64,000 nt of DNA from Candidatus Tectimicrobiota bacterium (lineage in GTDB: Bacteria > Tectomicrobia > Entotheonellia > Entotheonellales > Entotheonellaceae), in NCBI GenBank assembly GCA_026005175.1, contig BPKO01000011.1, positions 84,612-148,611 on the forward strand. Reading direction: 5' to 3'. The notes beneath the pieces are model-generated. The model made no database searches. It was given only the letters and a program-made list of their open reading frames with translations, and was not told the origin of the DNA. A program made the translations under genes and the position numbers. Every line of letters starts with the position of its first letter. Within the stretch, counting starts at the first letter, position 1. This document shows positions 8,308 through 62,662 of this stretch, one piece after another.

Positions 8308-8340
8308 GACAGCTTGTCCGCTGTCCCCTGACAGGATGTC
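8308..8340. promoter_or_regulatory. Tandem GACA-N3-TGTC activator sites
   Basis: GACAGCTTGTC (8308-8318) and GACAGGATGTC (8330-8340) are two perfect dyads with centres 22 bp apart (two helical turns). They sit 55-90 bp before the -24 element of the aldolase operon. The position suits a sigma-54 enhancer-binding protein. Confidence 0.7.
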
Positions 8341-8394
8341 ACCGGCAGCGCAGCGCGGGCGCGCTGGGTGCGGGGCCGGCCGTGCCGGCGGGGC

Positions 8395-8410
8395 TGGTAC
8401 GGGAGTTGCA
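8395..8410 (+). promoter_or_regulatory. Sigma-54 promoter of the fba-pfk-pps operon
   Basis: TGGTACG-GGAG-TTGCA has correct GG-N10-GC spacing. It lies 39 bp before the aldolase start and downstream of the tandem dyads. Confidence 0.75.
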
Positions 8411-8448
8411 CTTTGCGACAGACATGGGGCTGCAAGGGAGGAAAAGGC

Positions 8449-9363
8449 ATGACCCAGACACGCGTGCAGGAGATCCTGAGCTGGTACGCCAGCGAGACGC
8501 CAGGGACGCGGGCCAACCTGGCGCGCCTTCTCAACCACGGGCGGCTGCGGGGCACCGGCCGGCTGGTGATTTACCCCGTGGACCAGGGCTTCGAGCACGG
8601 CCCGGGGCGCTCCTTTGCGCCCAACCCGCCGGCCTACGACCCGCTGTACCACTACGACCTCGCCCTGGAGGCCGGCTGCAGCGCTTACGCCGCGCCGCTG
8701 GGCTTTATCGAAGCGGCAGCGCAGTATGACCCCGGCGCCCTGCCGCTCATCCTCAAGCTCAACAGCCACGACGTGCTGCGCCACGAAGCCGATCCCCTGC
8801 CGGCCCTCACCGCCAGCGTGCAAGACGCCCTGCGCCTGGGCTGCGCCGCCATTGGGTTTACCATTTATCCGGGCTCGGCACAGCGCACGGTGATGTACGA
8901 GCAGCTGCGCGCCCTGGCCGCCGAGGCCAAGGCATGTGGGCTGGTGGTGGTGGTGTGGTCTTACCCGCGCGGCGCCGACCTCACCCCTGAGCAGGAAACC
9001 GCCGTCGACGTGGTGGCCTATGCCGCCCACATCGCCGCCCAGCTCGGCGCCCACATCATCAAAGTGAAGCTGCCCAGCGACCTGGTGGCCCAGGAGGCGG
9101 CGCGCCGCGCCTACCAGCACATTCCCATCGCCACCCTTGCCGAACGCGTGCGCCACGTGGTGCAGAGCGCTTTCAACGGCCGCCGCATCGTGGTCTTTTC
9201 CGGCGGCGAAAGTAAGGACCTCGACACCCTGCTGCACGAGGTGCAGGCCATCCGGGCCGGCGGCGGCTTTGGCTCGATCATCGGCCGCAATACGTTCCAG
9301 CGCCCGCGCGCCGAAGCCCTGGACATGCTGGGCAAGATCATGGACATCTACGCCCAACCCTGA
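8449..9363 (+). CDS. fbaB: Fructose-bisphosphate aldolase, class I (FbaB/DhnA type)
   Basis: Schiff-base aldolase interconverting fructose 1,6-bisphosphate with two triose phosphates, 304 residues, archaeal-type DhnA family. Visible landmarks are VIYPVDQGFEHGPGRSF near residue 40, LKLNSHDVL, GCAAIGFTIYPGS and HIIKVKLP, with lysines 205 and 207 in the Schiff-base strand. VVFSGGESKD and GGGFGSIIGRNTFQRP form the phosphate site. GGGAGGAAAA precedes the ATG. It is the first gene of an operon with phosphofructokinase (10 bp) and PEP synthase (13 bp). Confidence 0.95.
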   Translation: MTQTRVQEILSWYASETPGTRANLARLLNHGRLRGTGRLVIYPVDQGFEHGPGRSFAPNPPAYDPLYHYDLALEAGCSAYAAPLGFIEAAAQYDPGALPLILKLNSHDVLRHEADPLPALTASVQDALRLGCAAIGFTIYPGSAQRTVMYEQLRALAAEAKACGLVVVVWSYPRGADLTPEQETAVDVVAYAAHIAAQLGAHIIKVKLPSDLVAQEAARRAYQHIPIATLAERVRHVVQSAFNGRRIVVFSGGESKDLDTLLHEVQAIRAGGGFGSIIGRNTFQRPRAEALDMLGKIMDIYAQP

Positions 9364-9373
9364 AGGAGGCCCT

Positions 9374-10687
9374 ATGTCGCTGCCCGCCCCCGAGGCCTTG
9401 CGCATCGAGACCCTCGGCCCTTGCCGCATTCCCTCTCCCCTGCAAGGGGAGCGCTTCGTCGACGAGGCGCGCCGCGTGCTGGTGTGTACGGACACGCAGC
9501 AGCTGGCGCCCTACCTGAAAGCAGGGGTGCAGCCCCCCGCCTTCGAGCTGGCCGGGCCGCGGGCGCAGATCTTCTTTCGCCCCGAGACCCTCACCTGCGG
9601 CATCGTCACCTGCGGCGGGCTGTGCCCGGGGCTCAACAACGTCATTCGGTCGCTCGTCCTGAGCCTGACGTACGCTTACGGCGTGCGGCGCATTCTCGGC
9701 TTTCGCTACGGCTATGCCGGCCTGGCCAGCAAAAGCGGCTATGCCCCGCTGGTGCTCACCCCCGAAGTGGTGGACACCATCCACGAGCAGGGCGGCACCT
9801 TGCTGGGCACCTCGCGCGGGCCGCAGGACGTGGCCGACATGGTCGACACCCTGGTGCGCTGGGACGTCGGCGTGCTGTTTGCCATTGGCGGCGATGGCAC
9901 CCTGCGCGGCGCCGCTGCCCTGAGCCAGGAAATCGCCCGCCGCGGTCTGAAAATCGGCGTCGTCGGCATTCCCAAGACCATTGACAACGACCTGGAGTGG
10001 ATCGAGCGCAGCTTTGGCTTTGCCACCGCCGTGGAAGAAGCGCGGCGGGTGATCGTCGGCGCCCACGCCGAGGCGCGCGGCGCCTGGAACGGCATTGGCC
10101 TGGTCAAGCTCATGGGGCGCCACTCGGGCTTCATCGCCGCCCACGCCAGCCTGGCCAACAGCGACGTCAACTTCTGCCTGGTGCCGGAAGTGCCCTTTAC
10201 GCTTGAGGGCGAAGGCGGCTTCCTGCAGGCCCTGGAGCGGCGCCTCGAGCGCAAGCACCACGCGGTGGTCGTCGTGGCCGAGGGCGCCGGCCAGGAGCTG
10301 CTGCAAGACCCGGCGCGGGTGGAGCGTGACCCCTCGGGCAACATCCGCCTCAAAGACATCGGTGCTTACCTGCGCGACGAAATCGTGCGCTACTTTGCCC
10401 GGCGCCAGCTGCCAGTGACCGTCAAGTACATCGACCCCAGCTATACCATTCGCAGCTTGCCCGCCAACTCGCTCGATGCGGAGTACTGCCTGCTGCTCGG
10501 GCAGCATGCCGTGCACGCCGGCTTGGCCGGCCGCACCAACCTGGTGGTGGGCTACTGGAACCAGCACTTCACCCACGTGCCCATCGCGCTGGCCGTGGCA
10601 CGGCGCAAGCAGCTCGACCCCCAGGGCGAAACCTGGCAGCGCGTCCTGGAGGCCACCGGCCAGCCGGCCAGCCTGGTGGGCCACTGA
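9374..10687 (+). CDS. pfkA: 6-phosphofructokinase
   Basis: Phosphorylates fructose 6-phosphate in glycolysis; 437 residues, the long form related to plant and protist enzymes. GGLCPGLNNVIR binds phosphate, and AIGGDGTLRGA has Gly where PPi-dependent enzymes have Asp. PKTIDNDL has Lys at the position where bacterial ATP enzymes have Gly. The Gly/Lys combination is known from ATP-using members of this clade, so ATP is the likelier donor, but the donor is not certain. GMGRHSGFIA-type and sugar-binding motifs are present (KLMGRHSGFIA). AAGGAGG precedes the start. Confidence 0.93.
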   Translation: MSLPAPEALRIETLGPCRIPSPLQGERFVDEARRVLVCTDTQQLAPYLKAGVQPPAFELAGPRAQIFFRPETLTCGIVTCGGLCPGLNNVIRSLVLSLTYAYGVRRILGFRYGYAGLASKSGYAPLVLTPEVVDTIHEQGGTLLGTSRGPQDVADMVDTLVRWDVGVLFAIGGDGTLRGAAALSQEIARRGLKIGVVGIPKTIDNDLEWIERSFGFATAVEEARRVIVGAHAEARGAWNGIGLVKLMGRHSGFIAAHASLANSDVNFCLVPEVPFTLEGEGGFLQALERRLERKHHAVVVVAEGAGQELLQDPARVERDPSGNIRLKDIGAYLRDEIVRYFARRQLPVTVKYIDPSYTIRSLPANSLDAEYCLLLGQHAVHAGLAGRTNLVVGYWNQHFTHVPIALAVARRKQLDPQGETWQRVLEATGQPASLVGH

Positions 10688-10700
10688 GGAGGAGGAGACG

Positions 10701-13115
10701 ATGCCACAGAAGGCGTATATCCGCTGGTTTGCCGAGCTCAGCCTCGACGAGGTGGCCGAGGTGGGAGGCAAAAACGCCTCCCTGGGAGAGCTGTACCGCG
10801 AGCTCACCCCCAAGGGAATCAAGGTGCCCAACGGCTTTGCCATTACCGCCACCGCGTACCGCCGCTTTCTTGAGGCTGCCGGGCTCGACACCCAGATCCG
10901 CGACTTGCTGCGCGACCTTGACACCCGCGACATCGCCGACTTACGCCAGCGCGGCCGCCGCGTGCGCCAGGCCATCCTGGCCGCGCCTTTACCCTCTGAC
11001 GTGGAAGCGGCCATTCTTGAGGCCTACGACAAGCTCGGCGAGGGCAGCCCCGAGCCCGTGGACGTGGCGGTGCGCAGCAGCGCCACTGCCGAAGACCTGC
11101 CCGACGCCAGCTTTGCGGGGCAGCAAGAGACTTACCTCAACGTGCAAGGGCACACGGCGCTGCTTAGCGCCTGCAAGCGCTGCTTTGCCTCGCTGTTTAC
11201 CGACCGTGCCATTTCCTACCGTGCCGACCGCGGCTTCGACCACTTCTCGATTGCCCTCTCGGTGGGCGTGCAGCGCATGGTGCGCTCGGACTTGGCCGCT
11301 GCCGGGGTGATGTTCACCCTCGACACGGAAACCGGCTTCCGCGATGTGGTGCTCATCAACGCTTCCTACGGCCTGGGCGAGACCGTGGTGCAGGGCAAAG
11401 TAACCCCCGATGAGTACTACGTCTTCAAGCCCACCTTGCGTCAGGGCTACCGGCCCATCCTGCGCAAGAAGCTGGGCAGCAAGGAATTCAAGCTCGTTTA
11501 CGACGTGGGTGGCGGGCGCATGGTGCGCGACGTGCCCGTGCCCCTGCACGAGCGCCAGCGCTACGCCCTGAGCGATGACGACATTCTTACCCTGGCGCGC
11601 TGGGGCTGCCTCATCGAAGACCACTACAGCGCGCGGCGCGGCCGCCCCACGCCCATGGACATCGAGTGGGCCAAGGACGGCCGCAGCGGCGAGCTCTTCG
11701 TGGTGCAGGCGCGGCCAGAGACGGTGCAGGCGCGCAAGTCCCTCGACACGCTAGAGCTCTACCGCCTGGAGCAGCGCGGCCCGGTGCTGCTGCAAGGCCA
11801 GAGCGTCGGCGACAAAATCGCCAGCGGCCCGGTGCGCATCGTCAAAGACGTCAGCCAGCTGCCGGACTTCCAGGAAGGGGAGGTGCTGGTCACCGACATG
11901 ACCGACCCCGACTGGGAGCCGGTGATGAAAAAAGCCGCCGCCATCGTCACCAACCGCGGCGGCCGCACCTGCCACGCCGCCATCGTCAGCCGCGAGCTGG
12001 GGCTGCCGGCGGTGGTGGGCACCGAGCGCGCCACCGAGGTGCTGCGCCCGGGCCAGGTGGTGACCGTCTCCTGCGCCGAGGGGAACACCGGCTACGTCTA
12101 CGACGGCAAGCTGCCGTTCCGCGTCGAGCGCGTCGACCTCAAGGGGCTGCCGCGGCCCAAGACGCAGGTGATGATGAACGTGGGCAACCCGGAAAATGCC
12201 TTTGCCTTATCCTTTTTGCCCAACGACGGCGTGGGCCTGGCGCGCGAGGAGTTCATCATCAGCACGTATATCGGCATCCACCCCCTGGCTCTGCTCGAGT
12301 ACGACCGCCTCGACGACGCGGCGCTTAAAGCCGAGATCGACCGCCGCACCGCCGGCTACCAGGACAAGCCGCAGTTTTTCGTCGACCGCCTGGCCGAAGG
12401 CGTGGCCATGATCGCCGCCGCCTTTTATCCCAAAGACGTCATCGTGCGCCTGAGCGACTTCAAGTCCAACGAGTACGCCAACCTCCTTGGCGGCCGGCGC
12501 TACGAGCCAGAAGAAGAAAACCCCATGCTGGGCTTTCGCGGCGCTTCGCGCTACTACGACCCGCGCTACCGCGAGGGCTTTGCCCTGGAGTGCCGCGCCA
12601 TGCGCAAGGTGCGCCAGGAAATGGGGCTGACCAACGTCAAGCTGATGATTCCCTTCTGCCGCACCGTGGAAGAGGCGCGGCGGGTGCAGGAAGAGATGGC
12701 CCGCCACGGCCTGCGCCGCGGCGAGGAGGGGCTGGAGCTCTACGTGATGTGCGAGATCCCGAGCAACGTCATCCTCGCCGACGCCTTTGCCGAGGTCTTC
12801 GACGGCTTCTCCATCGGCTCCAACGACCTGACGCAGCTGGTGCTGGGGGTGGACCGCGACTCGGGCCTGGTGGCCCACCTTTTTGACGAGCGCAATCCGG
12901 CAGTAAAGCGCATGATTGCCAGCGTCATCGGCACCGCCAAGGCCAAAGGCCGCAAAATCGGCATCTGCGGCCAGGCGCCCAGCGATTATCCCGACTTTGC
13001 GCAGTTTCTCGTCGAGCAAGGCATCGACAGCATCTCCCTCAACCCCGATGCCGTGCTCAAGACCACGCTGGCCATTCTGGAAATGGAAAAACGGCTGGCA
13101 GCCAAGAGCGCCTGA
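10701..13115 (+). CDS. ppsA: Phosphoenolpyruvate synthase
   Basis: Converts pyruvate and ATP to PEP, AMP and phosphate; 804 residues, full length. The N-terminal ATP-binding domain starts with EVGGKNASLGEL and has VAVRSSATAEDLPDASFAGQ. The swivelling domain carries the phosphohistidine H425 in GGRTCHAAIVSRELG. The C-terminal PEP/pyruvate barrel has MLGFRGASRYYDP and FSIGSNDLTQLVLGVDRDS. GAGGAGGAGA precedes the ATG. With aldolase and phosphofructokinase it lets the operon serve both gluconeogenic and glycolytic flux. It converges on the next gene with a 2-bp gap. Confidence 0.96.
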   Translation: MPQKAYIRWFAELSLDEVAEVGGKNASLGELYRELTPKGIKVPNGFAITATAYRRFLEAAGLDTQIRDLLRDLDTRDIADLRQRGRRVRQAILAAPLPSDVEAAILEAYDKLGEGSPEPVDVAVRSSATAEDLPDASFAGQQETYLNVQGHTALLSACKRCFASLFTDRAISYRADRGFDHFSIALSVGVQRMVRSDLAAAGVMFTLDTETGFRDVVLINASYGLGETVVQGKVTPDEYYVFKPTLRQGYRPILRKKLGSKEFKLVYDVGGGRMVRDVPVPLHERQRYALSDDDILTLARWGCLIEDHYSARRGRPTPMDIEWAKDGRSGELFVVQARPETVQARKSLDTLELYRLEQRGPVLLQGQSVGDKIASGPVRIVKDVSQLPDFQEGEVLVTDMTDPDWEPVMKKAAAIVTNRGGRTCHAAIVSRELGLPAVVGTERATEVLRPGQVVTVSCAEGNTGYVYDGKLPFRVERVDLKGLPRPKTQVMMNVGNPENAFALSFLPNDGVGLAREEFIISTYIGIHPLALLEYDRLDDAALKAEIDRRTAGYQDKPQFFVDRLAEGVAMIAAAFYPKDVIVRLSDFKSNEYANLLGGRRYEPEEENPMLGFRGASRYYDPRYREGFALECRAMRKVRQEMGLTNVKLMIPFCRTVEEARRVQEEMARHGLRRGEEGLELYVMCEIPSNVILADAFAEVFDGFSIGSNDLTQLVLGVDRDSGLVAHLFDERNPAVKRMIASVIGTAKAKGRKIGICGQAPSDYPDFAQFLVEQGIDSISLNPDAVLKTTLAILEMEKRLAAKSA

Positions 13116-15742: not shown

Positions 15743-15753
15743 GACAGGTTGTC
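15743..15753. promoter_or_regulatory. GACA-N3-TGTC activator site
   Basis: GACAGGTTGTC, embedded in a longer palindrome from GCGGACA to TGTCCGC, lies about 90 bp before the -24 element of the ATPase promoter. Confidence 0.65.
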
Positions 15754-15841: not shown

Positions 15842-15857
15842 TGGCACGGAAGTTGCT
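15842..15857 (+). promoter_or_regulatory. Sigma-54 promoter of the P-type ATPase operon
   Basis: TGGCACG-GAAG-TTGCT is a perfect match to the -24/-12 consensus. It lies 59 bp before the small membrane ORF and 178 bp before the ATPase. Confidence 0.85.
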
Positions 15858-16035: not shown

Positions 16036-18759
16036 ATGGCCACCGCCACTGCGCCTCGCACTGCGGCGCCGCCCTGGCACGCCCTGGCTCCGACAGACGT
16101 CGTGGCGCAGCTGCACACCGACCCCGTGCGGGGCCTGGAGCGTGCCGAGGCGCGGCGCCGCCTAGTGCAGTACGGCCGCAACGTGCTGCAGACCAGCCGG
16201 GTGACGCCGTGGTACGGGGTGCTGGCCCGCCAGTTTGTCGATGTTCTTATTGTCATTTTGCTCCTCGCCGCCGCCATCTCCCTGCTGCTGGGCGAGGTGA
16301 CCGACGCCGTAACCATCCTGGCCATCGTAGGGCTCAACGGCCTGCTGGGCTTCGTGCAGGAGTGGAAAGCCGAGCAGGCCCTCGCGGCGCTGCAGCGCCT
16401 GCTGGCGCCACGCTGCCGCGTGGTGCGTGACGGCCGCGAGCAGGACTTAGAAGCCGCGCAGCTCGTCCCCGGCGACCTCGTCGTGCTCGACACCGGCGAC
16501 CGCGTGCCCGCCGACGTGCGGCTGCTTGCCGCCGTAAACCTGCGCGTTGACGAGTCGGCCCTCACCGGCGAGTCGGCGCCCGTAAGCAAGAGCCCGGAAG
16601 CCGTGCCGCCGGAGACGCCGCTGGCCGAGCGCCGCGGCATGGTCTGGATGGGCACCGCGGTGACCAACGGCCGTGCCCGCGGCGTGGTGGTGGCCACCGG
16701 CATGGCCACCGAGTTTGGCCGCATCGCGCAGCTGACGGCGGCGGTGGGAGAAGAGCGCACGCCCCTGCAGCGCAAGCTGGCCGTCCTGGGTATGCAGCTG
16801 GGCCTTTTTGCCGTTGGCATCTCGGTCCTGGTGGCCGCTGCCGGCTGGCTCGCCGGCAAGCCGCTGCTGGAGATGTTCCTCACCGGCGTCTCCCTGGCGG
16901 TGGCGGTGGTTCCCGAAGGCCTGCCGGCGGTGGTCACCATCACCCTGGCCTTGGGCGTCCGCGCCATGGTGCGGCGCCGCGCCCTGCTGCGGCGCCTGCA
17001 GGCGGCCGAAACCCTGGGCGCGGCCACCGTCATCTGCACCGACAAGACCGGCACCCTGACGCAAAACGAGATGACCGTACAGCGCCTCTGGCTGCCCAGC
17101 GGTGAGGTGGAGGTCACCGGCGTCGGCTACACCCCCAGCGGCCGCTTCCTGCGCCAGGGGAAGCCCCTTGAACCGCAGCAGCACCCCGAGCTGCTGGCCC
17201 TGCTGGAAGCCGGCTGGCGCTGCAACCATGCCCGCCTGGTGCAGGACGCCGAGGGGTGGCACCAGATCGGCGAGCCCACGGAAGCAGCACTGCTCGTCGC
17301 TGCGGCCAAGGCCGGCTTCCCCCTGGACAAACCGGAAGCGGCGGTGGCGGAGTTTTCCTTCAACTCGGCGCGCAAGCGCATGACAGTGATCGAGGCGCGT
17401 CCCGAAGGCCCCGTGGCGTTTGTCAAAGGCGCCCCGGAGGTCATCCTGCCGCGCTGCACCACCATCCAGGCAAGCAGCGGCACGCGCCCCCTGACGCCGC
17501 AGGAGCGCGCCGCCTGCGAGCAGGCCTACACCGCCATGGCCGAGGCGGGCCTGCGCACCCTGGCCCTGGCCCGCCGCCTCCTGCCCCCTGACCTCCCCTG
17601 GCACGAGGACGCCGTGGAGCAAGCGCTCACCTTGCTCGGGGTGGTGGGCCTCATCGACCCGCCGCGGCCCGAGGTGCCGGCGGCGGTGCAGCTGGCCCGC
17701 ACCGCCGGCATCCGCGTCCTCATGGTCACCGGCGATGCCCCGGGCACGGCGCTGGCCATTGCCCGCCGCATCGGGCTGCACGTCGCGCGCGCCCTCACCG
17801 GGCAGGAGCTCGAGGCCTTGGACGACGAGGCACTGCGCCAAATCCTGCAGCAAGACGTGCTCTTTGCCCGCACCACCCCGGAGCAAAAGCTGCGCCTTGT
17901 TACCCTGCTACAGGCCATGGGCCACGTGGTGGCCATGACCGGCGACGGCGTCAACGATGCCCCGGCCTTGAAAAAAGCCGACGTCGGCATTGCCATGGGC
18001 TTGCGCGGCACCGAGGTGGCCCGCGGTGCCGCGGACATGATCCTTACCGACGACAACTTTGCTTCCATCGTGGCCGCGGTGGAAGAAGGCCGGCGGCAGT
18101 ACGACAACATCCAGAAGTTCGTGCGCTACTTGCTGTCGGCCAACACGGGCGAAATCGCGGCCGTCTTTGCCAACGTCCTGCTGGGCGGCCCGCTCATCCT
18201 GCTGCCGGTGCAGATCCTGTGGATGAACCTGGTCACCGACGGCGTGTCGGCGGTGGCCCTGGGGGTGGAGCCGGCCGAGGCCGGCCTCATGCAGCGGCCG
18301 CCGCGGCGCCGCGAGGCGCCGGTGCTCGACCGCCAGGGTATTTTGACCATTCTGCTGCTGGGCGGCTACATGGGCGGCGTTGCCCTGGGGCTGTTCCAGT
18401 ACGCCCTCGACCACGCCCCGTCTCTGGCCTGGGCGCGCTCCTTGGCCTTTACCGGCCTGGTGGTCATGCAGCAAGTCAACGCGCTCAACTTCCGCACCCT
18501 GCGGGCTCCGCTGGCGGCCGTTGGCGCCTTCAGCAACCCGTGGCTGTTGCTGGCGGTGCTGAGCATGCTGGGCCTGCAGGCGGCCGCCATATACCTGCCC
18601 TTCTTGCAGCGTGCCTTTCACACCGCCCCTCTGGCTTGGACAGACTGGGCGCTGCTGGGGGCGGTGGCGGCACCGCTTTTTTTGGTCACAGAGGCGCTCA
18701 AAAGGTGGCGCTGGCGGCGGCGCAGGCCGGTGTTTGACAACCCGCCTGCGGTTGCTTAG
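16036..18759 (+). CDS. Cation-transporting P-type ATPase (P2, Ca2+/PMCA-like)
   Basis: ATP-driven cation pump of 907 residues. An N-terminal cation-ATPase domain (DVVAQLHTDPVRGLERAEA) leads into the membrane region. VVPEGLPAVVTITLALG is the M4 ion site typical of P2 pumps, followed by CTDKTGTLTQNEM with phosphorylated D336. KGAPE marks the nucleotide domain, and VAMTGDGVNDAPALKKADVG the hinge. The C-terminal helices carry VQILWMNLVTDGVSAVALG. There is no N-terminal metal-binding motif, so Ca2+, Mn2+ or a monovalent cation is likelier than heavy metals. AGGAGGAAT lies before the ATG. It is probably cotranscribed with the downstream reductase and dehydrogenase. Confidence 0.93.
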   Translation: MATATAPRTAAPPWHALAPTDVVAQLHTDPVRGLERAEARRRLVQYGRNVLQTSRVTPWYGVLARQFVDVLIVILLLAAAISLLLGEVTDAVTILAIVGLNGLLGFVQEWKAEQALAALQRLLAPRCRVVRDGREQDLEAAQLVPGDLVVLDTGDRVPADVRLLAAVNLRVDESALTGESAPVSKSPEAVPPETPLAERRGMVWMGTAVTNGRARGVVVATGMATEFGRIAQLTAAVGEERTPLQRKLAVLGMQLGLFAVGISVLVAAAGWLAGKPLLEMFLTGVSLAVAVVPEGLPAVVTITLALGVRAMVRRRALLRRLQAAETLGAATVICTDKTGTLTQNEMTVQRLWLPSGEVEVTGVGYTPSGRFLRQGKPLEPQQHPELLALLEAGWRCNHARLVQDAEGWHQIGEPTEAALLVAAAKAGFPLDKPEAAVAEFSFNSARKRMTVIEARPEGPVAFVKGAPEVILPRCTTIQASSGTRPLTPQERAACEQAYTAMAEAGLRTLALARRLLPPDLPWHEDAVEQALTLLGVVGLIDPPRPEVPAAVQLARTAGIRVLMVTGDAPGTALAIARRIGLHVARALTGQELEALDDEALRQILQQDVLFARTTPEQKLRLVTLLQAMGHVVAMTGDGVNDAPALKKADVGIAMGLRGTEVARGAADMILTDDNFASIVAAVEEGRRQYDNIQKFVRYLLSANTGEIAAVFANVLLGGPLILLPVQILWMNLVTDGVSAVALGVEPAEAGLMQRPPRRREAPVLDRQGILTILLLGGYMGGVALGLFQYALDHAPSLAWARSLAFTGLVVMQQVNALNFRTLRAPLAAVGAFSNPWLLLAVLSMLGLQAAAIYLPFLQRAFHTAPLAWTDWALLGAVAAPLFLVTEALKRWRWRRRRPVFDNPPAVA

Positions 18760-18793
18760 TGTTGTACAGAGGCTTGCGGCAAGGAGCGGTCTC

Positions 18794-20638
18794 ATGCCCC
18801 GCGCACGCTGGACGCTGGAGCAGGCTTACCGGCAGGCGCTTGACTTCTTCGGCGGCGACGACTTGCGCGCCGAGGTGTTCGTGCACCGCTATGCCCTGCG
18901 CGACCTGGAGGGGCGCTGGCTGGAGGCCACGCCGGAGATGCTGTGGCAGCGGCTGGCGCAGCACCTGGCGCGGCCGGAAAAGGACCGCGGGCGCTGGCAG
19001 CAGCGCTTCTTTGCCCTGCTGGCGGAGTTTCGCTTTGTGCCCGGCGGCCGCATCCTCTTTGCCACCGGCAATCCGCGGCGCGCCACCCTCTTTAACTGCT
19101 ACTTCATCCCCATTGCCTCGGACTCGGTCTACGGCATCACCCGCTGGATGTTCGAGGCCTCCAAGACCTACAGCGCCGGCGGCGGCGTGGGTACCAACAT
19201 CGACGTGCTGCGCCCCCGCGGCGCCAGAGTGCGCAACGCCGGCCTGGAGAGCTCGGGTTCGGTGAGCTTCATGGAGGTTTTCTCCACCCTCACCGGCGTC
19301 ATGGGCATCTCCGGAGGCCGCCGCGGCGCCTTGATGATCACCACGCGGGTGGACCACCCTGACATCCTGGAGTTTATTCGCTGCAAGAGCGATCCGGCCC
19401 GCAGCCGGGTGCGCAACGCCAACATCTCGGTGCGCGTCTCCGATGCCTTCATGCATGCCGTCGACGCCGATGCCCCCTGGCACCTGAGGTTTACCACCCC
19501 GCACGAGACCCTTGTCCGCCAGGTGCCGGCGCGGCAGGTGTGGGACGCCCTGGTGGAGGCGGCCTGGCTTTCTGCCGAGCCCGGCTTGCTCTTTTGGGAT
19601 ACCATCCAGCGCTTCTCCACCACCCAGTACCACGGCATGGAGGTGCAGGGGGTCAACGTTTGCGGCGAGGTGCCCATGGAGCCCTACGGTGCCTGTAACC
19701 TGGGCAGCCTCAACCTTGCCGCGTTTGTGCGCCAGCCTTTTACCCCGCAGGCAGACGTCGACTGGGAGGCGCTGGAAACCGCGGTCCACGACGCGGTGCG
19801 CTTTCTCGACAACGTCATCGACGTGGGCGCCCCGCGCCACCCCCTGCGCCTACAGCGCCTGGAATCCGAAAAAACCCGCCGCATCGGCCTGGGGGTGATG
19901 GGGCTGGCCGACGCCCTGGTCATGCTCGGGCACCGCTACGACGGCGAGGCGGCCCGGCGCTGGGTGGAGACGTGCTTTGCCTTTCTCAAACGCCACGCCT
20001 ATGCTGCCAGCATCGAGCTGGCGCGGGAAAAGGGCAGCTTTCCCGCCTTTGCCGCCGAAGCTCACCTGCGCCAGCCCTTCCTGCACACCCTGCCCGCCGA
20101 GCTGCAGCGGGCCATCCGCCGCTACGGGCTGCGCAACGCGGCCCTGCTCTCCGTGGCGCCTACTGGCTCGATTTCCATTCTGGCCGGGGTGTCAAGCGGC
20201 ATCGAGCCCATTTTTGCCTTGCAGTACCTGCGCCACGTCGCCGACAAGGCATACCGCGTCTGGCACCCCCTGGTGCAGCGCTACCGCGCCGTGCACGGCG
20301 AGGAAGCCCCGCTGCCCGAGACCTTTGTCACCGCCCATCAAGTCGACCCCCTGGCGCGCGTGGCGCTGCAGGCCTGTGCCCAGGCGCACGTCGACCAGAG
20401 CATCTCTTCCACCATCAACTTGCCAGAAGCCACCCCGGTAGCCACGGTGGCGCGCATTTTCCGCGCCGCCTGGCAGCAAGGCTGCAAGGGCATCACCGTC
20501 TTTCGCGAAGGAAGCCGCAGCGCCATCGTCGAGCCCCTCGACGCCGCCGCCACGGCGTTTGCCACCGAGAAGGCCTCTCCCGTTGGCGTCTGTACGTTTT
20601 GCGAGCTGCCGCCGGCAGCCCCCGGCAAAGGAGCCTGA
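18794..20638 (+). CDS. nrdJ: Adenosylcobalamin-dependent (class II) ribonucleotide reductase
   Basis: Makes deoxyribonucleotides with a B12-generated thiyl radical, so it works with or without oxygen; 614 residues. FVPGGRILFATGN and LFNCYFIP (first redox Cys) are at the N-terminus. KTYSAGGGVGTN and MISGGRRGA-type loops follow (GISGGRRGALMI). VNVCGEVPMEPYGACNLGSLNL holds the radical Cys and catalytic Glu; LSVAPTGSISILAGVSSGIEP and VDQSISSTINLP complete the site. The C-terminal CTFC pair is the likely thioredoxin-reduced tail. AAGGAG precedes the ATG, 34 bp after the ATPase stop. Confidence 0.93.
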   Translation: MPRARWTLEQAYRQALDFFGGDDLRAEVFVHRYALRDLEGRWLEATPEMLWQRLAQHLARPEKDRGRWQQRFFALLAEFRFVPGGRILFATGNPRRATLFNCYFIPIASDSVYGITRWMFEASKTYSAGGGVGTNIDVLRPRGARVRNAGLESSGSVSFMEVFSTLTGVMGISGGRRGALMITTRVDHPDILEFIRCKSDPARSRVRNANISVRVSDAFMHAVDADAPWHLRFTTPHETLVRQVPARQVWDALVEAAWLSAEPGLLFWDTIQRFSTTQYHGMEVQGVNVCGEVPMEPYGACNLGSLNLAAFVRQPFTPQADVDWEALETAVHDAVRFLDNVIDVGAPRHPLRLQRLESEKTRRIGLGVMGLADALVMLGHRYDGEAARRWVETCFAFLKRHAYAASIELAREKGSFPAFAAEAHLRQPFLHTLPAELQRAIRRYGLRNAALLSVAPTGSISILAGVSSGIEPIFALQYLRHVADKAYRVWHPLVQRYRAVHGEEAPLPETFVTAHQVDPLARVALQACAQAHVDQSISSTINLPEATPVATVARIFRAAWQQGCKGITVFREGSRSAIVEPLDAAATAFATEKASPVGVCTFCELPPAAPGKGA

Positions 20639-20639
20639 C

Positions 20640-21653
20640 GTGCAGGTGGCCGTGTTCAGCACCCGCTCTTACGACCGCACGTTTCTCGAGGCGGCCAACG
20701 CCCAGTTCGGCCATGCCCTGTCGTACTTTGCAGCGCGCCTCGACGCCACCACGGCAGAGCTGGCGCGCCCTTTTCCGGCCGTCTGCGTCTTTGTCCACGA
20801 CGACCTGGGGGCTGCCACCCTGGAGCGGCTGGCAGCGGGCCAGACGCGCTTCATTGCCCTGCGCTGCGCGGGCTTTAACCAAGTCGACCTGCGTGCTGCG
20901 GCACGGCTGGGGTTCACCGTCTGCAACGTGCCGGCCTACTCCCCGCACGCCATTGCCGAGCACACCGTAGGCCTCATGCTCACCCTCAACCGCAAGCTCC
21001 ACCGCGCCTACTTGCGCGTCCGTGACGGCAACTTTTCCCTTGAGAACCTGCTGGGCTTTGACATGCACGGCAAGACGGTGGGCATTGTCGGCACGGGCAA
21101 AATCGGGGCGGTGGTGGCCCGCATCCTGCTGGGCTTTGGCTGCCGGGTGCTGGCTTACGACCCTTACCCCGATGACGCGCTGCGCGCCTTGGGCGTGACC
21201 TACACGGCGCTCGAGGCGCTGCTGTCGCAAGCCGATATTGTTACCCTGCACTGCCCGCTCACGCCGCAGACCCACCATCTCATCGACGCCCAGGCCATTG
21301 CGCGCATGAAGGACGGCGTGATGCTGATCAATACCAGCCGCGGCGCGGTGATCGATACCGTGGCCGTCATCGAGGCGCTCAAGCGTCAGAAAATCGGGGC
21401 GCTGGGCCTTGACGTCTACGAGGAAGAAGAGCGCTACTTTTACGAGGACCTCTCGGCCCAGATCATCGAAGACGACGTGCTGGCCCGTCTTCTCACTTTC
21501 CCCAACGTGGTGATCACCGCGCACCAGGCCTTTTTCACCCGCGAAGCGATGCACGCCATTGCCCACACCACCCTGCGCAACCTCTGGCAGCTCGAGCGCG
21601 GCGAGCCCTGCCCGCACCTGGTGACCGCCGAGCGCTACCTGGCGGCAGGCTAA
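20640..21653 (+). CDS. ldhA: Fermentative D-lactate dehydrogenase (LdhA-like)
   Basis: NADH-dependent reduction of pyruvate to D-lactate, 337 residues. The sequence follows E. coli LdhA closely: NVPAYSPHAIAEHTVGLMLT, HRAYLRVRDGNFSLE, the NAD motif VGIVGTGKIG, LINTSRGAVIDT (catalytic Arg region), LDVYEEEERYFYEDLS and TAHQAFFTREA (catalytic His). The GTG at 20640, one base after the nrdJ stop, has AAAGGAG upstream and marks an operon. Its stop codon overlaps that of the convergent radical SAM gene. Its presence behind a sigma-54 promoter with nrdJ points to oxygen-limited growth. Confidence 0.93.
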   Translation: MQVAVFSTRSYDRTFLEAANAQFGHALSYFAARLDATTAELARPFPAVCVFVHDDLGAATLERLAAGQTRFIALRCAGFNQVDLRAAARLGFTVCNVPAYSPHAIAEHTVGLMLTLNRKLHRAYLRVRDGNFSLENLLGFDMHGKTVGIVGTGKIGAVVARILLGFGCRVLAYDPYPDDALRALGVTYTALEALLSQADIVTLHCPLTPQTHHLIDAQAIARMKDGVMLINTSRGAVIDTVAVIEALKRQKIGALGLDVYEEEERYFYEDLSAQIIEDDVLARLLTFPNVVITAHQAFFTREAMHAIAHTTLRNLWQLERGEPCPHLVTAERYLAAG

Positions 21654-31015: not shown

Positions 31016-33469
31016 TTAGGAAGCGCTGCCCGTCTCTGAGGCCTCGGCCGGCTTGGCGCCGTCGACGCTGCGCTCGCCAAAGGCCACGATGTCGCGCGCC
31101 AGCTGCTGCAAGCGGGCGTTGACCAGGTAGTGCACGGTGCCCGGGGTGTGCACGTCGCCGGCTGGCACGCCGGTGAGCAGCTCCAGGCCCTGGTCGACAT
31201 GGGTGATAGGGTAGATGTGAAAGCGCCCGGCGCGGATGGCCTCCACCACGTCGGGGCGCAGCATGAGGTGGCGCACGTTGGCCTGGGGAATGATCACCCC
31301 CTGGGTGCCGGTGAGGCCGCGCTCGGTGCAGACGTCGTAAAAGCCTTCGATTTTCTCGTTGACGCCGCCAATGGCCTGGATGTCGCCCCACTGGTTCACC
31401 GAGCCGGTCACCGCCAGGTCCTGGCGCACCGGCAGGTTGGCCAGGCGCGACAGCAGGGCGTAGAGCTCGGTCGAGGAGGCGCTGTCGCCTTCCACGCCGC
31501 TGTAAGACTGCTCGAAGCACAGGCTCGCCGACAGGGTGAGCGGCTTGTCCTGAGCGTACATCTGGCGCAGGTAGCCGGCGAGAATGAGCACGCCCTTGTC
31601 GTGGGTGCTGCCGCTCAGCCGGGCTTCGCGCTCGATGTTGATGATGCCGCTGCGCCCCATGGCCGCCGTGGCCGTGACGCGCGAGGGGCGGCCGAAGGTG
31701 TGGTCGCCCAGCTGGATCACCGACAGCCCGTTGACTTGCCCCACGCGGCGGCCCTCGGTGTCGATGAGCACCGTGCCCTGGAGGATAAGCTCGCGCACTT
31801 TTTCCTCCAGGCGGTTGGCGCGAAACGTGCGGGCCTGCAAGGCCTGCTCCACGTGGCGGCGGCCGACCACCGCTGCCCCTTCCTGGGCGGCCAAGAAGCT
31901 CGCCTCGCGCACCACGTCGGCCAGCACCGTGAACTGGCTGGCCAGCTTTTCCTGATCCTCGACGCGGCGCATGCCGTACTCGATCACCGCCGCCACGCCG
32001 CTGCGGTCGAAGTGCTTGAGGTTTTCATCGCGGCACAGGCGGGCGATGAAGTGGGCGTAGCTGGCCTCGTGCGCCGCGGTGCGCGCCATGTCAAAGCCAA
32101 AGTCGGCCTTGATCTTGAAGAGGTGCTGGAAGTCCGGGTCGAGGAAGTAAAGCAAGTAGTAGAGCCAGGGGTGGCCGGTAACCACGATTTTGGTCTGGAT
32201 GGGAATGGGCTCGGGCTGCAGCGCCGAGATGGTAAACAGGGCAAAGGGGTCGTAGGCTTCGATTTTGAGCTGGCGGCTCTGCATGGTGCGCTTGAGCGTC
32301 TTCCACACCAAGGGCTCGGTGAGGGCGTCTTCGAGGTTGAAGAGGATAAAGCCGCCGCTGGCGCGCAGCAGCGACCCCGCCTTGATGCGCGTGAAGTTGG
32401 TCACCAGGCGGCCGTGGGGATCGACAACGCGGTCGATGGTGCCAAAGAGGCTCTTGTACGTAGGGGTATCCTCGACGATCACCGGCGCGCCCTGGGTGTC
32501 GCTGTTGTCGACGAGGACGTTGATCCGGTACTCGAGGAAGGGCTCTTCGCCGGGCGGCAAGGGGAGGGGCAGCTGCGGCGGTGGCTGGGGGGCCCGCTCC
32601 TTGAAGCGGTCGAGGTGCGACAGCATGTGCTCCTGCACCGCGTCGAGGTAGCGCTGCACGTGCGCCTGCGGATGGCGCCGCTTGAGCTCGCCGATCATGG
32701 GGGCAATAATCATGGCGCTGAAGCTGCGCTCGATCTGGCGCACCTCCTCGGCCAGCTGCTGCATGAGCAGCCGCTGTCGCACCATGACGTTGCGAAACTC
32801 CCGCAGCACTTCCGCCTCGCGCTGCCCCAGCTCGCGCCGCTGCTCCTCGCTGAGCTGCTGCACCTCTTCGGGGGTCATGGGGCGGTCGCCCCGCAAGGGA
32901 ATGAAAAGCACGTTGCCCATGGGGTCGACTTGCAGGGCAAAGCCTCGCTCGCGGGCAAAGCGGGCAAAGGCTTCCTGCAGCTGGCGCACTTCGCGCTCGT
33001 ACTTCTCGCTCAGCTCGCGCTGCTCGCGCTCGAAGGCTTCTTCGCGAAAGGCCTTGGGCAGGGCCTCGCGCAGGTGAGCCACCAGGCGCTCCATGTCGTG
33101 CTGCAGCCGCCGCCCCTGGCCGGGCTCCAGGGCCAGCGCCTGGGGCTGGTCGGGGTTGCGGAAGTTGTGCACGTAGACCCAGTCCCCCGGCGTGGGCAGG
33201 GAAGCGGCGCGCTGGCGCAGCAGGGCCACGATTTGCGCCTGCGCCTCCGTGCCTTCCAGGCCGCAGACAAAGATGTGGTACCCTGCCTGGTCCATGCCCA
33301 GCCCGGTGTGCAGCGCCTGCACGGCGCGCTCTTGCCCCACCAGGTCGGTCAGGGGCGGCAGCTCGGCGGTGGTGGCAAACGGCAAGGTGCTGAGGTCCAC
33401 GGTGCGGCGCGCCTCTTCGGCGGTGAGCTCGCGCACCGCGGCAGCAGCCGCAGGGTTCTTTTCTGCCAT
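31016..33469 (-). CDS. Lon-like (AAA_32/LonC-type) protease with degenerate Walker A
   Basis: 817 residues. The C-terminal 200 residues are a Lon proteolytic domain with the catalytic Ser in EGDSASSTELYALLSRLA and Lys in GGVNEKIEGFYDVC. The N-terminal AAA_32-like region starts with LVGQERAVQALHTGLGMDQAGYHIFVCG. The P-loop reads GLEGTEAQA, lacking the Lys and Ser/Thr of GxxGxGK(S/T), and the Walker B area reads LLRASGGFILFNLEDAL. A long coiled coil (about 150-270) interrupts the domain. ATP-independent proteolysis as in LonC is plausible. The small heat-shock gene lies 3 bp upstream, so both form an operon. Confidence 0.92.
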   Translation of the reverse strand: MAEKNPAAAAAVRELTAEEARRTVDLSTLPFATTAELPPLTDLVGQERAVQALHTGLGMDQAGYHIFVCGLEGTEAQAQIVALLRQRAASLPTPGDWVYVHNFRNPDQPQALALEPGQGRRLQHDMERLVAHLREALPKAFREEAFEREQRELSEKYEREVRQLQEAFARFARERGFALQVDPMGNVLFIPLRGDRPMTPEEVQQLSEEQRRELGQREAEVLREFRNVMVRQRLLMQQLAEEVRQIERSFSAMIIAPMIGELKRRHPQAHVQRYLDAVQEHMLSHLDRFKERAPQPPPQLPLPLPPGEEPFLEYRINVLVDNSDTQGAPVIVEDTPTYKSLFGTIDRVVDPHGRLVTNFTRIKAGSLLRASGGFILFNLEDALTEPLVWKTLKRTMQSRQLKIEAYDPFALFTISALQPEPIPIQTKIVVTGHPWLYYLLYFLDPDFQHLFKIKADFGFDMARTAAHEASYAHFIARLCRDENLKHFDRSGVAAVIEYGMRRVEDQEKLASQFTVLADVVREASFLAAQEGAAVVGRRHVEQALQARTFRANRLEEKVRELILQGTVLIDTEGRRVGQVNGLSVIQLGDHTFGRPSRVTATAAMGRSGIINIEREARLSGSTHDKGVLILAGYLRQMYAQDKPLTLSASLCFEQSYSGVEGDSASSTELYALLSRLANLPVRQDLAVTGSVNQWGDIQAIGGVNEKIEGFYDVCTERGLTGTQGVIIPQANVRHLMLRPDVVEAIRAGRFHIYPITHVDQGLELLTGVPAGDVHTPGTVHYLVNARLQQLARDIVAFGERSVDGAKPAEASETGSAS

Positions 33470-33472
33470 GCT

Positions 33473-34230: not shown

Positions 34231-34322
34231 CCCTTTATAGTGAAGGCCACAGGCAAGCGGCGTGCCAGAAGGCAGAGCGCCGTGCCGCGCTTCACCGTCT
34301 GGCAAGTGCGGATCCCTGGGGC

Positions 34323-34353
34323 GACAACCTGTCACCAGAGGCGACAGAGGGTC
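34323..34353. promoter_or_regulatory. Tandem GACA-N3-TGTC activator sites
   Basis: GACAACCTGTC (34323-34333, perfect) and GACAGAGGGTC (34343-34353, one mismatch) have centres 20 bp apart. They end about 70 bp before the -24 element of fmdB. Confidence 0.6.
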
Positions 34354-34421: not shown

Positions 34422-34437
34422 TGGCAAGGAAGTGGCT
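34422..34437 (+). promoter_or_regulatory. Sigma-54 promoter of the fmdB-type gene
   Basis: TGGCAAG-GAAG-TGGCT keeps the GG-N10-GC core with two consensus mismatches. It lies 32 bp before the start codon and downstream of the tandem dyads. Confidence 0.55.
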
Positions 34438-47641: not shown

Positions 47642-47680
47642 GACAGGTGACAAAACGCCTGCTGCGGCGGACGAGCTGTC
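47642..47680. promoter_or_regulatory. Variant GACA-N3-TGTC activator sites
   Basis: GACGAGCTGTC (47670-47680) has one mismatch to the dyad, and GACAGGTGACA (47642-47652) is a direct rather than inverted pair. They lie 75-115 bp before the -24 element of the GYD/ftsH promoter. Confidence 0.5.
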
Positions 47681-47755: not shown

Positions 47756-47771
47756 TGGCACGGAGTTTGCT
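47756..47771 (+). promoter_or_regulatory. Sigma-54 promoter of the GYD/ftsH operon
   Basis: TGGCACG-GAGT-TTGCT is a perfect -24/-12 match, 88 bp before the GYD gene. Confidence 0.85.
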
Positions 47772-47858: not shown

Positions 47859-48161
47859 ATGCCCGTTTACGTCATGCTCACCCGGCTGTCTCCCGAAGCG
47901 CTGAACCGGCCGCAGGCGGTGTCGGAGCTCAACCAGCAGGTGGAAGCGCGCCTCAAGCGCGAGTGCCCGCAGGTGAAGTGGCTGGCCAACTACGCCATCC
48001 TTGGCCCCTGCGACTACCTGGACATCTTCGAAGCGCCCGACGCGGAGACGGCCACCAAAGTGGCGCTGCTGGTCCGCAGCTTTGGCCACGCCACCACCGA
48101 AACCTGGCTGGCCACGCCGTGGGAGCGCTTCGAGGCGCTGGCCAAGGCCCTGTCGGGATAG
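47859..48161 (+). CDS. GYD-domain protein
   Basis: 100 residues: MPVYVMLTRLSPEALNRPQA, then VKWLANYAILGPCDYLDIFEAPDAETATKVALLVRSFG fit the GYD family (a ferredoxin-like dimeric barrel), here with GPCDYLD in place of the name-giving GxYD. Function is unknown in general. GGAGGAAG precedes the ATG. It is the first gene after a sigma-54 promoter and precedes a small gene and ftsH with gaps of 20 and 21 bp. Confidence 0.88.
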   Translation: MPVYVMLTRLSPEALNRPQAVSELNQQVEARLKRECPQVKWLANYAILGPCDYLDIFEAPDAETATKVALLVRSFGHATTETWLATPWERFEALAKALSG

Positions 48162-48181
48162 ACCGCAGAGGAGGTCCCCCC

Positions 48182-48382
48182 ATGGCCTGGCGTCTTTACG
48201 ACTTGCTCAACTGCCGCTGGTACAATGATGACATCTACACCAGCCGCAAGGCCTGCGTGGCCGCGGCAGCGCGGCTGATGCGCCAGGCGCGCGCCGAAGG
48301 CGAGGTGCTGGAGCTGGTGGCCGAGCCGTTTGACCCGAGCGAGCTGCCCATCGAGGAAGAAGTGGAAGAAGAAGGGGCCTAG
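48182..48382 (+). CDS. Small acidic protein of unknown function
   Basis: 66 residues. MAWRLYDLLNCRWYNDDIYTSRKACVAAAARLMRQARAEG is helical and the tail is very acidic (EEEVEEEGA). GAGGAGG precedes the ATG. It lies between the GYD gene and ftsH on one transcript, so an adaptor or substrate role with FtsH is possible but only positional. I recognise no family. Confidence 0.7.
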   Translation: MAWRLYDLLNCRWYNDDIYTSRKACVAAAARLMRQARAEGEVLELVAEPFDPSELPIEEEVEEEGA

Positions 48383-48403
48383 CCGGCACGGGAAGCACGC
48401 GGC

Positions 48404-50230
48404 ATGCAGACGCCCCATAAGTTCTCCATCGGCTACTTCCTGGCTGCCCTGGCTGCCCTGCTGGCCCTGCAGGTGCTGCTGGCCCCCACGCCGCCGCGCC
48501 TCAGTTACCTGGAGTTCAAACGCGCCCTTCAGGCAGGCAAAATCGAGCGGGTGGTGATTTCCGACGAGCTGATCCACGGCTGGTTCAAGCCCGAGGCGGT
48601 GGCGGCAGGGCAGCCGCGCGCCTTTGTTACCGTGCGCGTGCCCGATCCGGAGCTGGTGAAAGAACTCGAAGCGCGCGGCGTCGACTTCAGCGGCCACTAC
48701 GAAAGCCCCCTACTCAAAACGCTGCTGACGTGGGTCATCCCGGCCCTCTTCGTGGTAGGCCTGTGGGCTTTCCTCTACCGCCGCCTGACGGTGGGCAGCG
48801 GGGTGATGGCCTTTGGCAAGAGCCGGGCTCGCATCTACGCCGAGAAGTCGACCGGCGTCACTTTTGATGACGTGGCCGGGCAGGAGGAGGCCAAAGAAGA
48901 GCTGCGCGAAATCGTCGAGTTTCTCAAGAACCCGAAAAAATTCCGCCTCCTGGGCGGCCGCCTGCCGCGCGGCGTGCTGCTCGTGGGCCCTCCGGGCACG
49001 GGCAAGACGCTGTTGGCCAAGGCGGTGGCCGGAGAGGCCAACGTGCCTTTTTTCTCCATCAGCGGCACGGAGTTCGTGGAGCTCTTCGTGGGGGTGGGTG
49101 CGGCGCGCGTGCGCGACCTCTTTGCCCAGGCGCAGGCCAAAGCGCCCTGCATCGTCTTTATCGACGAGCTCGATGCCCTGGGCAAGGCGCGCGGCATCGG
49201 CGGCGTCGCCGGCGGCCACGACGAGCGCGAGCACACCCTCAACCAGCTGCTGGTGGAGATGGACGGCTTTGACACCAGCAAAGGGGTGATCATCCTGGCC
49301 GCCACCAACCGGCCGGAGTTGCTCGACCCGGCGCTGCTGCGGCCAGGGCGCTTCGACCGCCAGATCCTGGTGGACCGCCCCGACGTGCGCGGGCGCGAGG
49401 CCATCCTGCGCGTGCACGCCAAGCACGTCAAACTGGCCCCCGACGTCGACCTCAAGGTCCTGGCGCAGCGCACCCCGGGCTTTGTGGGCGCCGACCTGGC
49501 CAACGTGGTCAACGAGGCGGCGCTGCTGGCGGCACGCAAGAACAAGAACCAGGTAGAAATGGCCGACTTCGAGGAAGCCATCGACCGCATCGTCGCCGGG
49601 CTGGAGAAAAAGAACCGGGTGATCAACCCGCGCGAGCGGCAAATCGTCGCCGTGCACGAGACCGGCCACGCCCTGGTGGCCGCCTTTACTCCGGGTGCCG
49701 ACCGCGTGCACAAGATCTCGATCATCCCGCGGGGCATTGGGGCCCTGGGGCACACGCAGCAGCTGCCCACCGAAGATCGCTACCTCATGACCCGCCAGGA
49801 GCTGCTGGCCAAAATCGACGTGCTCTTTGGCGGCCGGGCCGCCGAGCTGCTGGTCTTTGGCGAAGTCTCCACCGGCGCGCAGGACGACTTGCGGCGGGCC
49901 ACCGAGATCGCCCGTGCCATGGTGCTCGAGTACGGCATGGGCGAAACCCTCGGCCCGGCGGCTTTCCCGCGCGTGCGCCCGCGCTTTCTCCCCGAGCCCT
50001 GGGGCTACACCCCCGACGGCACGCGCGAATACAGCGAGGCCACGGCGCGGGCTCTGGACCTGGAGACCAAGAAGATCCTCGACGAGCGCATGGCGCACGT
50101 GCTGCAGCTGCTGCGCGACAAGCGCCCTTTGCTCGAGCGCATCGCCGCCTTGCTGCTGGAAAAAGAAGTGCTGGAAGGAGAGGAATTCTGGCGCCTGGTG
50201 CGGGAAGCCACCCCGGCGCCGGCGTCCTGA
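48404..50230 (+). CDS. ftsH: ATP-dependent zinc metalloprotease FtsH
   Basis: Membrane-anchored AAA+ protease, 608 residues. Two membrane segments (about 8-28 and 105-125) flank a short periplasmic domain. The AAA module has [18 protein letters not shown], Walker [17 protein letters not shown], the pore loop [17 protein letters not shown], Walker [13 protein letters not shown] and the second-region [15 protein letters not shown]. The zinc site is HETGH (H418, E419, H422). Being in a sigma-54 operon is unusual for FtsH, so this may be a second, stress-induced copy (inference). Confidence 0.96.
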
Positions 50231-61738: not shown

Positions 61739-61860
61739 CGGTGCTTAAACACCTCTTTTTTCGTTATCCCCGCGTGGCGCTGCCGACACGGCGAGCCATC
61801 ACGTGACGTTTCGGGAAGCGCTGGCGGGGAGAGCAACACGCCGGCAAGGGCGCCGCGCCA

Positions 61861-62478
61861 TTACGCCGCAGGGGGATAAGGCCACACAGCCCCCTGCATG
61901 AGGCGCAGGGCGCCGGGCGCCAGTTGCCGCACCACGGCCGGATCGTTCTGCGTTTTGGCGAGCAACATCACCCCTTCGAAGTAAGCGACAATGGTGCGTG
62001 CCGTCATCGACACGTCGGCCGCGGCAAGCGGGCCTTCGCCCGCCGCTTCGCGGAGCATGCGCTCGACCACGCGCGTCCAGCCGTCGAAGGTTTCCTGAAG
62101 CTTCTGACGGATGACGTCGTCTTGCGGGCTCAGTTCCAAGGCCAAGTTTCCCAGGGGGCAGCCGTGCAGGTGGCCGTAGGTTTCTCTGGCCGCCTGCAGG
62201 GCGTCGGCCGCCAGCTCAAAGGCCCGTGCCAGCCGCTCGCCCACCGAGCCCCCGCCCGCCAGGGCAGCTTCCCACATCGCCTGCACGCGGGCAGCATAGG
62301 CCTCGATGACCGCCAGCACCAAGTCACGCTTGGAAGGGAAGAAGTGGTAAAAACTCCCCTTCTTGACCCCGGCCCGGGCGCAGATGTCCTGCACGCTCAC
62401 CGCCGTGGCCCCGCGCACGGAGAAGAGCTCCGTGGCCGTCTGCACCAGCCGGCTGCGCGCATCGCTGACGCGCCCCAT
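61861..62478 (-). CDS. TetR/AcrR-family regulator
   Basis: 205 residues. RSRLVQTATELFSVRGATAVSVQDICARAGVKKGSFYHFFPSKRDLVLAVIEAY is the TetR helix-turn-helix with the typical GSFYHFF motif. The ligand-binding half contains HLHGCPLGNLALELS, characteristic of AcrR-like sensors that respond to electrophiles or small organics. The operator is probably the imperfect repeat at 62503. It is divergent from the sigma-54-driven sigma factor. No efflux genes are next to it. Confidence 0.92.
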   Translation of the reverse strand: MGRVSDARSRLVQTATELFSVRGATAVSVQDICARAGVKKGSFYHFFPSKRDLVLAVIEAYAARVQAMWEAALAGGGSVGERLARAFELAADALQAARETYGHLHGCPLGNLALELSPQDDVIRQKLQETFDGWTRVVERMLREAAGEGPLAAADVSMTARTIVAYFEGVMLLAKTQNDPAVVRQLAPGALRLMQGAVWPYPPAA

Positions 62479-62502
62479 GCCCCCTTCTCCGGCAAATAGT
62501 TG

Positions 62503-62518
62503 ACCAGTCAGCCAATTA
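62503..62518. promoter_or_regulatory. Possible TetR operator
   Basis: TTGACCAGTCAGCCAA is an imperfect inverted repeat 25 bp upstream of the TetR gene start, beside AT-rich ATTAATATA. Confidence 0.4.
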
Positions 62519-62580
62519 ATATACCCCCTGGGGTCGCATTCGTCAACCGGCGCCCGGGGGCGGCAGGCTGTCCGCTGCGG

Positions 62581-62605
62581 GACAATCTGTCAGCGACAGC
62601 CTGTC
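62581..62605. promoter_or_regulatory. Tandem GACA-N3-TGTC activator sites
   Basis: GACAATCTGTC (62581-62591) and GACAGCCTGTC (62595-62605) are two perfect dyads with centres 14 bp apart. They end about 42 bp before the -24 element of the sigma-factor promoter. Confidence 0.7.
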
Positions 62606-62646
62606 GTGAGGGGCGAGCAACCGGGGAAGGCGTAGGGGTTCGGCCC

Positions 62647-62662
62647 TGGCACGCCTTTTGCC
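62647..62662 (+). promoter_or_regulatory. Sigma-54 promoter of the second sigma factor and hsp20
   Basis: TGGCACG-CCTT-TTGCC matches the -24/-12 consensus except the last base, 30 bp before the start codon. Confidence 0.8.

Follow-up and report, generated by a model that had tools for sequence, protein, structure and literature searches.

Sigma-54 activators usually use tandem sites 40–90 bp upstream of the -24 element of the promoters they control. In Myxococcus xanthus, the NmpR (NmpRSTU) system governs an oxygen-utilization regulon for which a low-oxygen signal has been proposed (PMC11841059), and the genes of the DosR (DevR) dormancy regulon of Mycobacterium tuberculosis have been tabulated (PMC4090907). 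The main texts of sigma-54 catalogues for Desulfovibrio vulgaris (PMC4641369) and across bacteria (PMC12316311) describe many NtrC-type activators with their own sites upstream of -24/-12 promoters; an enrichment of UspA-domain genes among sigma-54 targets in Planctomycetia is reported in these catalogues. The strings GACA and TGTC are absent from both main texts, neither of which names Hsp20 targets. The element analysed here is the dyad GACA-N3-TGTC, found upstream of sigma-54 promoters in a 64,000 nt stretch (the window) of contig BPKO01000011.1, from a Candidatus Tectimicrobiota bacterium of the family Entotheonellaceae.

The assembly containing the window (G000) is 3.99 Mb in 14 contigs and 77% complete. 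It was compared with a sister genus (G001, record set SXND01, a genus of Entotheonellaceae; PMC9426513, PMC12925049), with two genomes of the same family (G002 and G003) and with one of another family in the same class (G004). A literature query with the string GACANNNTGTC returned no paper, and no paper was found linking Entotheonella with sigma-54. The mechanism and gene content discussed below are of known kinds; no description of the dyad site or of this combination was found in the literature searched.

The window contains six perfect dyads, compared with 0.45 ± 0.70 in shuffled sequences, and none of 100 shuffles reached six. Each of the six is upstream of a -24/-12 promoter with GG-N10-GC spacing, with 41–88 bp between the end of the dyad and the T of the promoter TGG. 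These gaps are 76 and 54 bp for the promoter at 8395, 88 bp for those at 15842 and 34422, and 55 and 41 bp for that at 62647; the promoter at 47756 has a dyad with one mismatch at 75 bp. The first-pass annotation had proposed a dispersed sigma-54 regulon from these features. Its six dyads and five promoters are exactly where it had placed them, and its claim that the gaps it examined held no other perfect copy extends to the whole window, where a scan gave no seventh. One-mismatch dyads number 26 in the window, compared with 15 expected, and are weak evidence alone. The promoter it had assigned to FmdB, at 34422, is present and is the weakest of the window set; the dyad at 34323 also serves a strong minus-strand promoter (34267–34252) that had been missed and that reads toward Hsp20 and a LonB/LonC-like protease. 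Another sigma-54-like site on the minus strand, at 8275, was judged spurious, having a lower score, a CGG start and no suitable gene behind it.

The genome-wide search for dyads near -24/-12 promoters that had been recommended as a check gives strong support to the regulon. There are 53 perfect dyads across G000, against 22 for a reversed-pattern control. Composites, defined as a dyad followed by N40-70 or N71-100 and then TGGYA-N7-TGC, number 24 compared with 0 in the control. Outside the window, 17 of 47 dyads have a strong sigma-54 promoter 30–120 bp away, where 0.5 would be expected; strong promoters score at least 18 under simple, ad hoc weights, relative to a background taken from the same DNA. 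The two dyads of a pair cannot be counted as independent, therefore the binomial P for this proportion is too small, and the true significance is lower but still decisive. Ten dyad pairs have starts 14–24 bp apart, with eight of these at 19–22 bp, or about two helical turns. Alignment of 32 sites by promoter gives GACA-RNY-TGTC, with A rare before the site and T rare after it, and the gaps between dyad end and promoter cluster at 54–55, 67–68, 73–76 and 85–89 bp. About 20 promoters in G000 carry the dyad, which is the only common element found ahead of them.

Across 386 bacterial genomes, the shorter-range composite occurs 15 times in G000 and 6 times in G001, and no other genome has more than two. 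Together with the counts within G000, this strongly supports a real, lineage-specific sigma-54 regulon marked by the GACA-N3-TGTC dyad. Three dyad-sigma-54 promoters are present in G004, each with two dyads (one imperfect in two cases), and one of these precedes a sigma-factor gene.

A search for an NtrC-type regulator with the dyad at its own promoter, also suggested by the first-pass annotation, found a receiver-AAA+-Fis protein encoded directly after GAPDH. It is the only sigma-54 activator of G000 found in a dyad-sigma-54 operon. The gene (C2:293236-294641) is split by a frameshift in the assembly, and its operon is flanked by two haem-copper oxidase gene sets. The G001 orthologue (L107:5711-7099) is intact, with 67–68% identity and an identical recognition helix, GVHPRTLTRMLRRYGL, and stands at the end of a different dyad-sigma-54 operon that includes DnaJ and a kinase. 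Receiver, sigma-54 AAA+ and Fis-type helix-turn-helix domains are identified in it by Pfam, and GAFTGA can be read in the sequences from both genomes. Neither an orthologue nor dyad promoters were found in G002 and G003. A scan of 84,980 species for the helix type returned three SXND01 loci, of which one is the intact regulator and two are fragments, together with two Myxococcota matches that are weak and unrelated. Operon position and distribution thus name this protein as the candidate, which probably binds the dyad and is probably autoregulated. In both G000 and G001, GAF/PAS histidine kinases are divergent from dyad promoters (L167:916-4623; L170:8645-10690), and their position makes them candidate sensors for the regulator.

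Two G001 fragments have only the Fis-type helix of the regulator (HPRTLTR-) and no AAA+ domain (L108 / L154, 7338-7703; L155, 9797-10483). These are possibly remnants of duplicated regulators.

It is reasonably probable that one NtrC-family response regulator, most likely the GAPDH-linked protein, uses GACA-RNY-TGTC as its enhancer site and drives a sigma-54 regulon of about 20 promoters. A histidine kinase would phosphorylate the regulator, which would then assemble at a single dyad or at two, often arranged in tandem at a spacing of two helical turns, about 40–90 bp upstream of the -24 element, and remodel the sigma-54 RNA polymerase. The regulon may serve survival under oxygen or respiratory-energy limitation, because its genes include those for universal stress proteins (USP) and CBS proteins, chaperones and proteases, an oxygen-independent ribonucleotide reductase, glycolysis and phosphoenolpyruvate (PEP) synthase, NAD salvage and nitrous oxide reduction.

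Several observations weigh against this proposal. An uncomfortable one is that rpoN is missing from both of the assemblies that carry the regulon: it was not found in G000 with two Pfam domains, in G001 with one, or with a profile of six sequences. The possibility of a divergent or split rpoN was rejected, as the profile, which draws on six relatives, gave no hit up to E = 10. In G004, an assembly of 990 contigs, no regulator with the GVHPRTLTRMLRRYGL helix was found among the activators examined, despite its tandem-dyad promoters, and two other activators (L065 and L067) share the distribution in G000 and G001.

The first-pass annotation had held absence of rpoN from the genome to be incompatible with the regulon. 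The gene is formally absent from this assembly, but the assembly is 77% complete and a convincing lptB is also missing from both G000 and G001, where the best matches have 37–40% identity. The relatives G002, G003 and G004 do have rpoN, beside lptB in G002 and G004. Neither lptB nor other rpoN neighbours were found at the contig ends examined. Of the sigma-54 activators in G000, nine are uninterrupted and a frameshift breaks one more. The intact activators and the conserved promoters suggest that the organism does have sigma-54, with its gene unsequenced.

The dyads could instead be read by a different sigma-54 activator, such as those at C2:9.6-10.7 kb and C12:70-71 kb or one that is not assembled, with the GAPDH-linked regulator merely a target. 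Several activators are represented by orthologues in G000 and G001 but not in G002 or G003, which suits this arrangement, however no other activator was found in a dyad-controlled operon. The activator L063 (C2:129 kb) also has an orthologue in G004, where there are dyad promoters, but it was rejected as the dyad reader: fliF, identified by reading the sequence, follows it closely, so that it reads as a flagellar regulator, and its helix type is present in genomes without dyad promoters. A different activator is therefore considered unlikely, although well short of negligible. Equally, the same regulon could respond to protein-folding stress (heat, or misfolded envelope or cytosolic proteins) rather than to oxygen or energy limitation. 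Its targets include Hsp20 twice, a Lon-like protease, FtsH, a sigma factor and, in G001, DnaJ, and single dyad-sigma-54 promoters are ahead of groESL and hsp20 in other phyla. USP, CBS proteins, class II ribonucleotide reductase, NosZ, NAD salvage, GAPDH and PEP synthase would be atypical of heat shock, however, and the regulator operon has terminal oxidase genes on its flanks. Protein stress is a serious alternative for the signal, if an improbable one, and oxygen or energy stress is itself a tentative inference.

It is far less probable that the dyad is the site of a factor other than a sigma-54 activator, for example of the LuxR or FNR type, and is merely upstream of sigma-54 promoters that other activators drive. 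The targets do include a PAS-LuxR regulator, but tandem sites at this distance from the -24 element have the usual activator layout, as in NmpR, and the dyad has no companion element before these promoters. Nor can the association readily be a matter of unrelated dyads and promoters picked out by eye. The slight excess of one-mismatch copies and the dyads of G003, which are many and lack composites, would be expected of chance matches; the composite counts, the survey of 386 genomes, the 17 of 47 dyads near strong promoters, the tandem spacing and recurrence in the sister genus effectively refute it. The GAPDH-linked regulator acting through sigma-54 is retained as the preferred explanation.

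The G003 dyads merit separate mention. There are 92 perfect copies compared with 36 for the reversed pattern used as control, but none forms a composite with a sigma-54 promoter, which suggests a different use or cause for the dyad in that genome.

The proposed circuit resembles that of NmpR in having an NtrC-type response regulator, sigma-54 promoters, paired dyads upstream of the -24 element, CBS and USP targets, and autoregulated signalling genes. The sites differ, as NmpR has GCGCA-N5-TGCGC with preferred gaps of 14–15 bp, while the sites aligned here are GACA-RNY-TGTC, with starts mostly 19–22 bp apart. In addition, the regulator is encoded here with GAPDH (or with DnaJ and a kinase in G001), and the targets extend to glycolysis, ribonucleotide reductase, NosZ and proteases.

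DosR belongs to the NarL/LuxR type of regulator, recognizes another site and does not use sigma-54. The apparent likeness to its regulon is in the kinds of gene only and does not imply regulatory homology. Several USPs, Hsp20 (hspX), class II ribonucleotide reductase (nrdZ), a cation P-type ATPase (ctpF), a CBS protein (hrp1) and phosphofructokinase (pfkB) are all found within the one regulon here, as are respiratory nitrogen-oxide genes and a response regulator in a regulon operon. The CBS protein matches Rv2626c only in part.

The features of the window and the targets elsewhere in G000 are listed in Table 1. The earlier list of controlled genes was kept with these further changes: the first unit, called glycolysis/gluconeogenesis, is more precisely class I aldolase, phosphofructokinase and PEP synthase, and the FmdB frame at 34469 is broken in this assembly. 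Dyad promoters in G001 precede genes for CBS-USP, receiver-USP, a ribosome-hibernation/cold-shock-domain protein and a GNAT-type protein, as well as the operon ending in the regulator; DUF5335 also has paired dyads there, about 0.4 kb upstream.

Table 1. Dyads, promoters and controlled genes. Positions are window coordinates unless a contig is given; target names given without a family search were assigned by reading the sequence.
Feature	Position	Strand	Sequence	Remarks
Perfect dyad	8308..8318	+	GACAGCTTGTC	Distal member of pair
Perfect dyad	8330..8340	+	GACAGGATGTC	Proximal member; start-to-start 22 bp from 8308 dyad
-24/-12 promoter	8395..8410	+	TGGTACGGGAGTTGCA	
Unit 1: class I fructose-bisphosphate aldolase (8449-9363), 6-phosphofructokinase (9374-10687), PEP synthase (10692-13115)	8449..13115	+		Pfam, NCBIfam
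Perfect dyad	15743..15753	+	GACAGGTTGTC	
-24/-12 promoter	15842..15857	+	TGGCACGGAAGTTGCT	
Unit 2: cation P-type ATPase (16036-18759), adenosylcobalamin-dependent ribonucleotide reductase (18794-20638), D-isomer 2-hydroxyacid (lactate-type) dehydrogenase (20640-21653)	16036..21653	+		Pfam, NCBIfam
Hsp20 (~33476-33800, frameshifted), LonB/LonC-like AAA protease (31016-33469)	31016..33800	-		Pfam
Strong -24/-12 promoter	34252..34267	-	TGGCACGCCGCTTGCC	Gap 55 bp to 34323 dyad
Perfect dyad	34323..34333	+	GACAACCTGTC	Between divergent promoters; one-mismatch copies next at 34343, 34355
Weak -24/-12 promoter (TGGCAAG-N4-GTGGC)	34422..34437	+	TGGCAAGGAAGTGGCT	Precedes FmdB-type zinc ribbon at 34469
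One-mismatch dyad	47670..47680	+	GACGAGCTGTC	
-24/-12 promoter	47756..47771	+	TGGCACGGAGTTTGCT	
Unit 4: GYD-domain protein (47859-48161), FtsH protease (48404-50230)	47859..50230	+		Pfam, NCBIfam
Dyad triplet	62562..62605	+	GGCAGGCTGTC, GACAATCTGTC, GACAGCCTGTC	Starts 62562 (one mismatch), 62581, 62595
-24/-12 promoter	62647..62662	+	TGGCACGCCTTTTGCC	
Unit 5: sigma-70-type sigma factor, regions 1.2-4 (62692-63540), Hsp20 (63577-63897)	62692..63897	+		Pfam, NCBIfam
USP operon with kinase-like AAA_33 protein	C2:289003			
USP operons	C3:62615; C5:144468			
DUF5335 - tandem USP	C11:81371			
CBS protein	C6:109935			
Single receiver - CBS	C6:111115			
GAPDH - regulator (dyad site at C2:292085)	C2:292150			
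Nicotinate phosphoribosyltransferase (NAD salvage)	C2:303.5 kb			Divergent from glycosyltransferase
Sec-type NosZ	C6:121904			Frameshifted
Molybdopterin oxidoreductase	C2:264831			
Methionine-rich protein - DUF302 unit	C2:272454			
PAS-LuxR regulator	C11:22840			

Frameshifts are found in the conserved genes for FmdB (~34469-34660), Hsp20 (33470-33800), and GAPDH and the regulator (L060 ~7600-8920), some of them at runs of G. This suggests errors in the assembly or the reads, and the completeness estimate may be lowered by them as well. A type I restriction-modification-like island (34788-43055), with an HsdM-like start near 35.2 kb, is directly behind the FmdB unit.

Outside the phylum, the dyad and a sigma-54 promoter precede groESL in two genomes that belong to different families, and in one genome two hsp20 genes are preceded by a run of three dyads with a sigma-54 promoter (among L262/G043, L263/G320 and L264/G084). 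A more widespread sigma-54 chaperone circuit is possible. The activators examined in these distant genomes include no clear orthologue of a G000 activator. The same dyad and a strong sigma-54 promoter also recur in genome family f95 (L213, L214 and L215; G235, G364 and G097), twice before a GspG-type pseudopilin gene.

The site, promoters, regulator and targets form a complete, testable hypothesis of how an uncultured lineage may run a global stress regulon. It can be proposed tentatively, as a possibility still open to considerable doubt, that an Entotheonella-family bacterium independently assembled a DosR-like dormancy programme and placed it under sigma-54 and an NtrC-type regulator that is autoregulated and has an undescribed enhancer site, so that the content of the regulon follows physiology and not regulator ancestry. 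This would give the hypoxia and dormancy genes of mycobacteria a second wiring, unrelated to the first. Since the dyad also precedes groESL and hsp20 in other phyla, core stress genes may be under sigma-54 control more widely than has been recorded.

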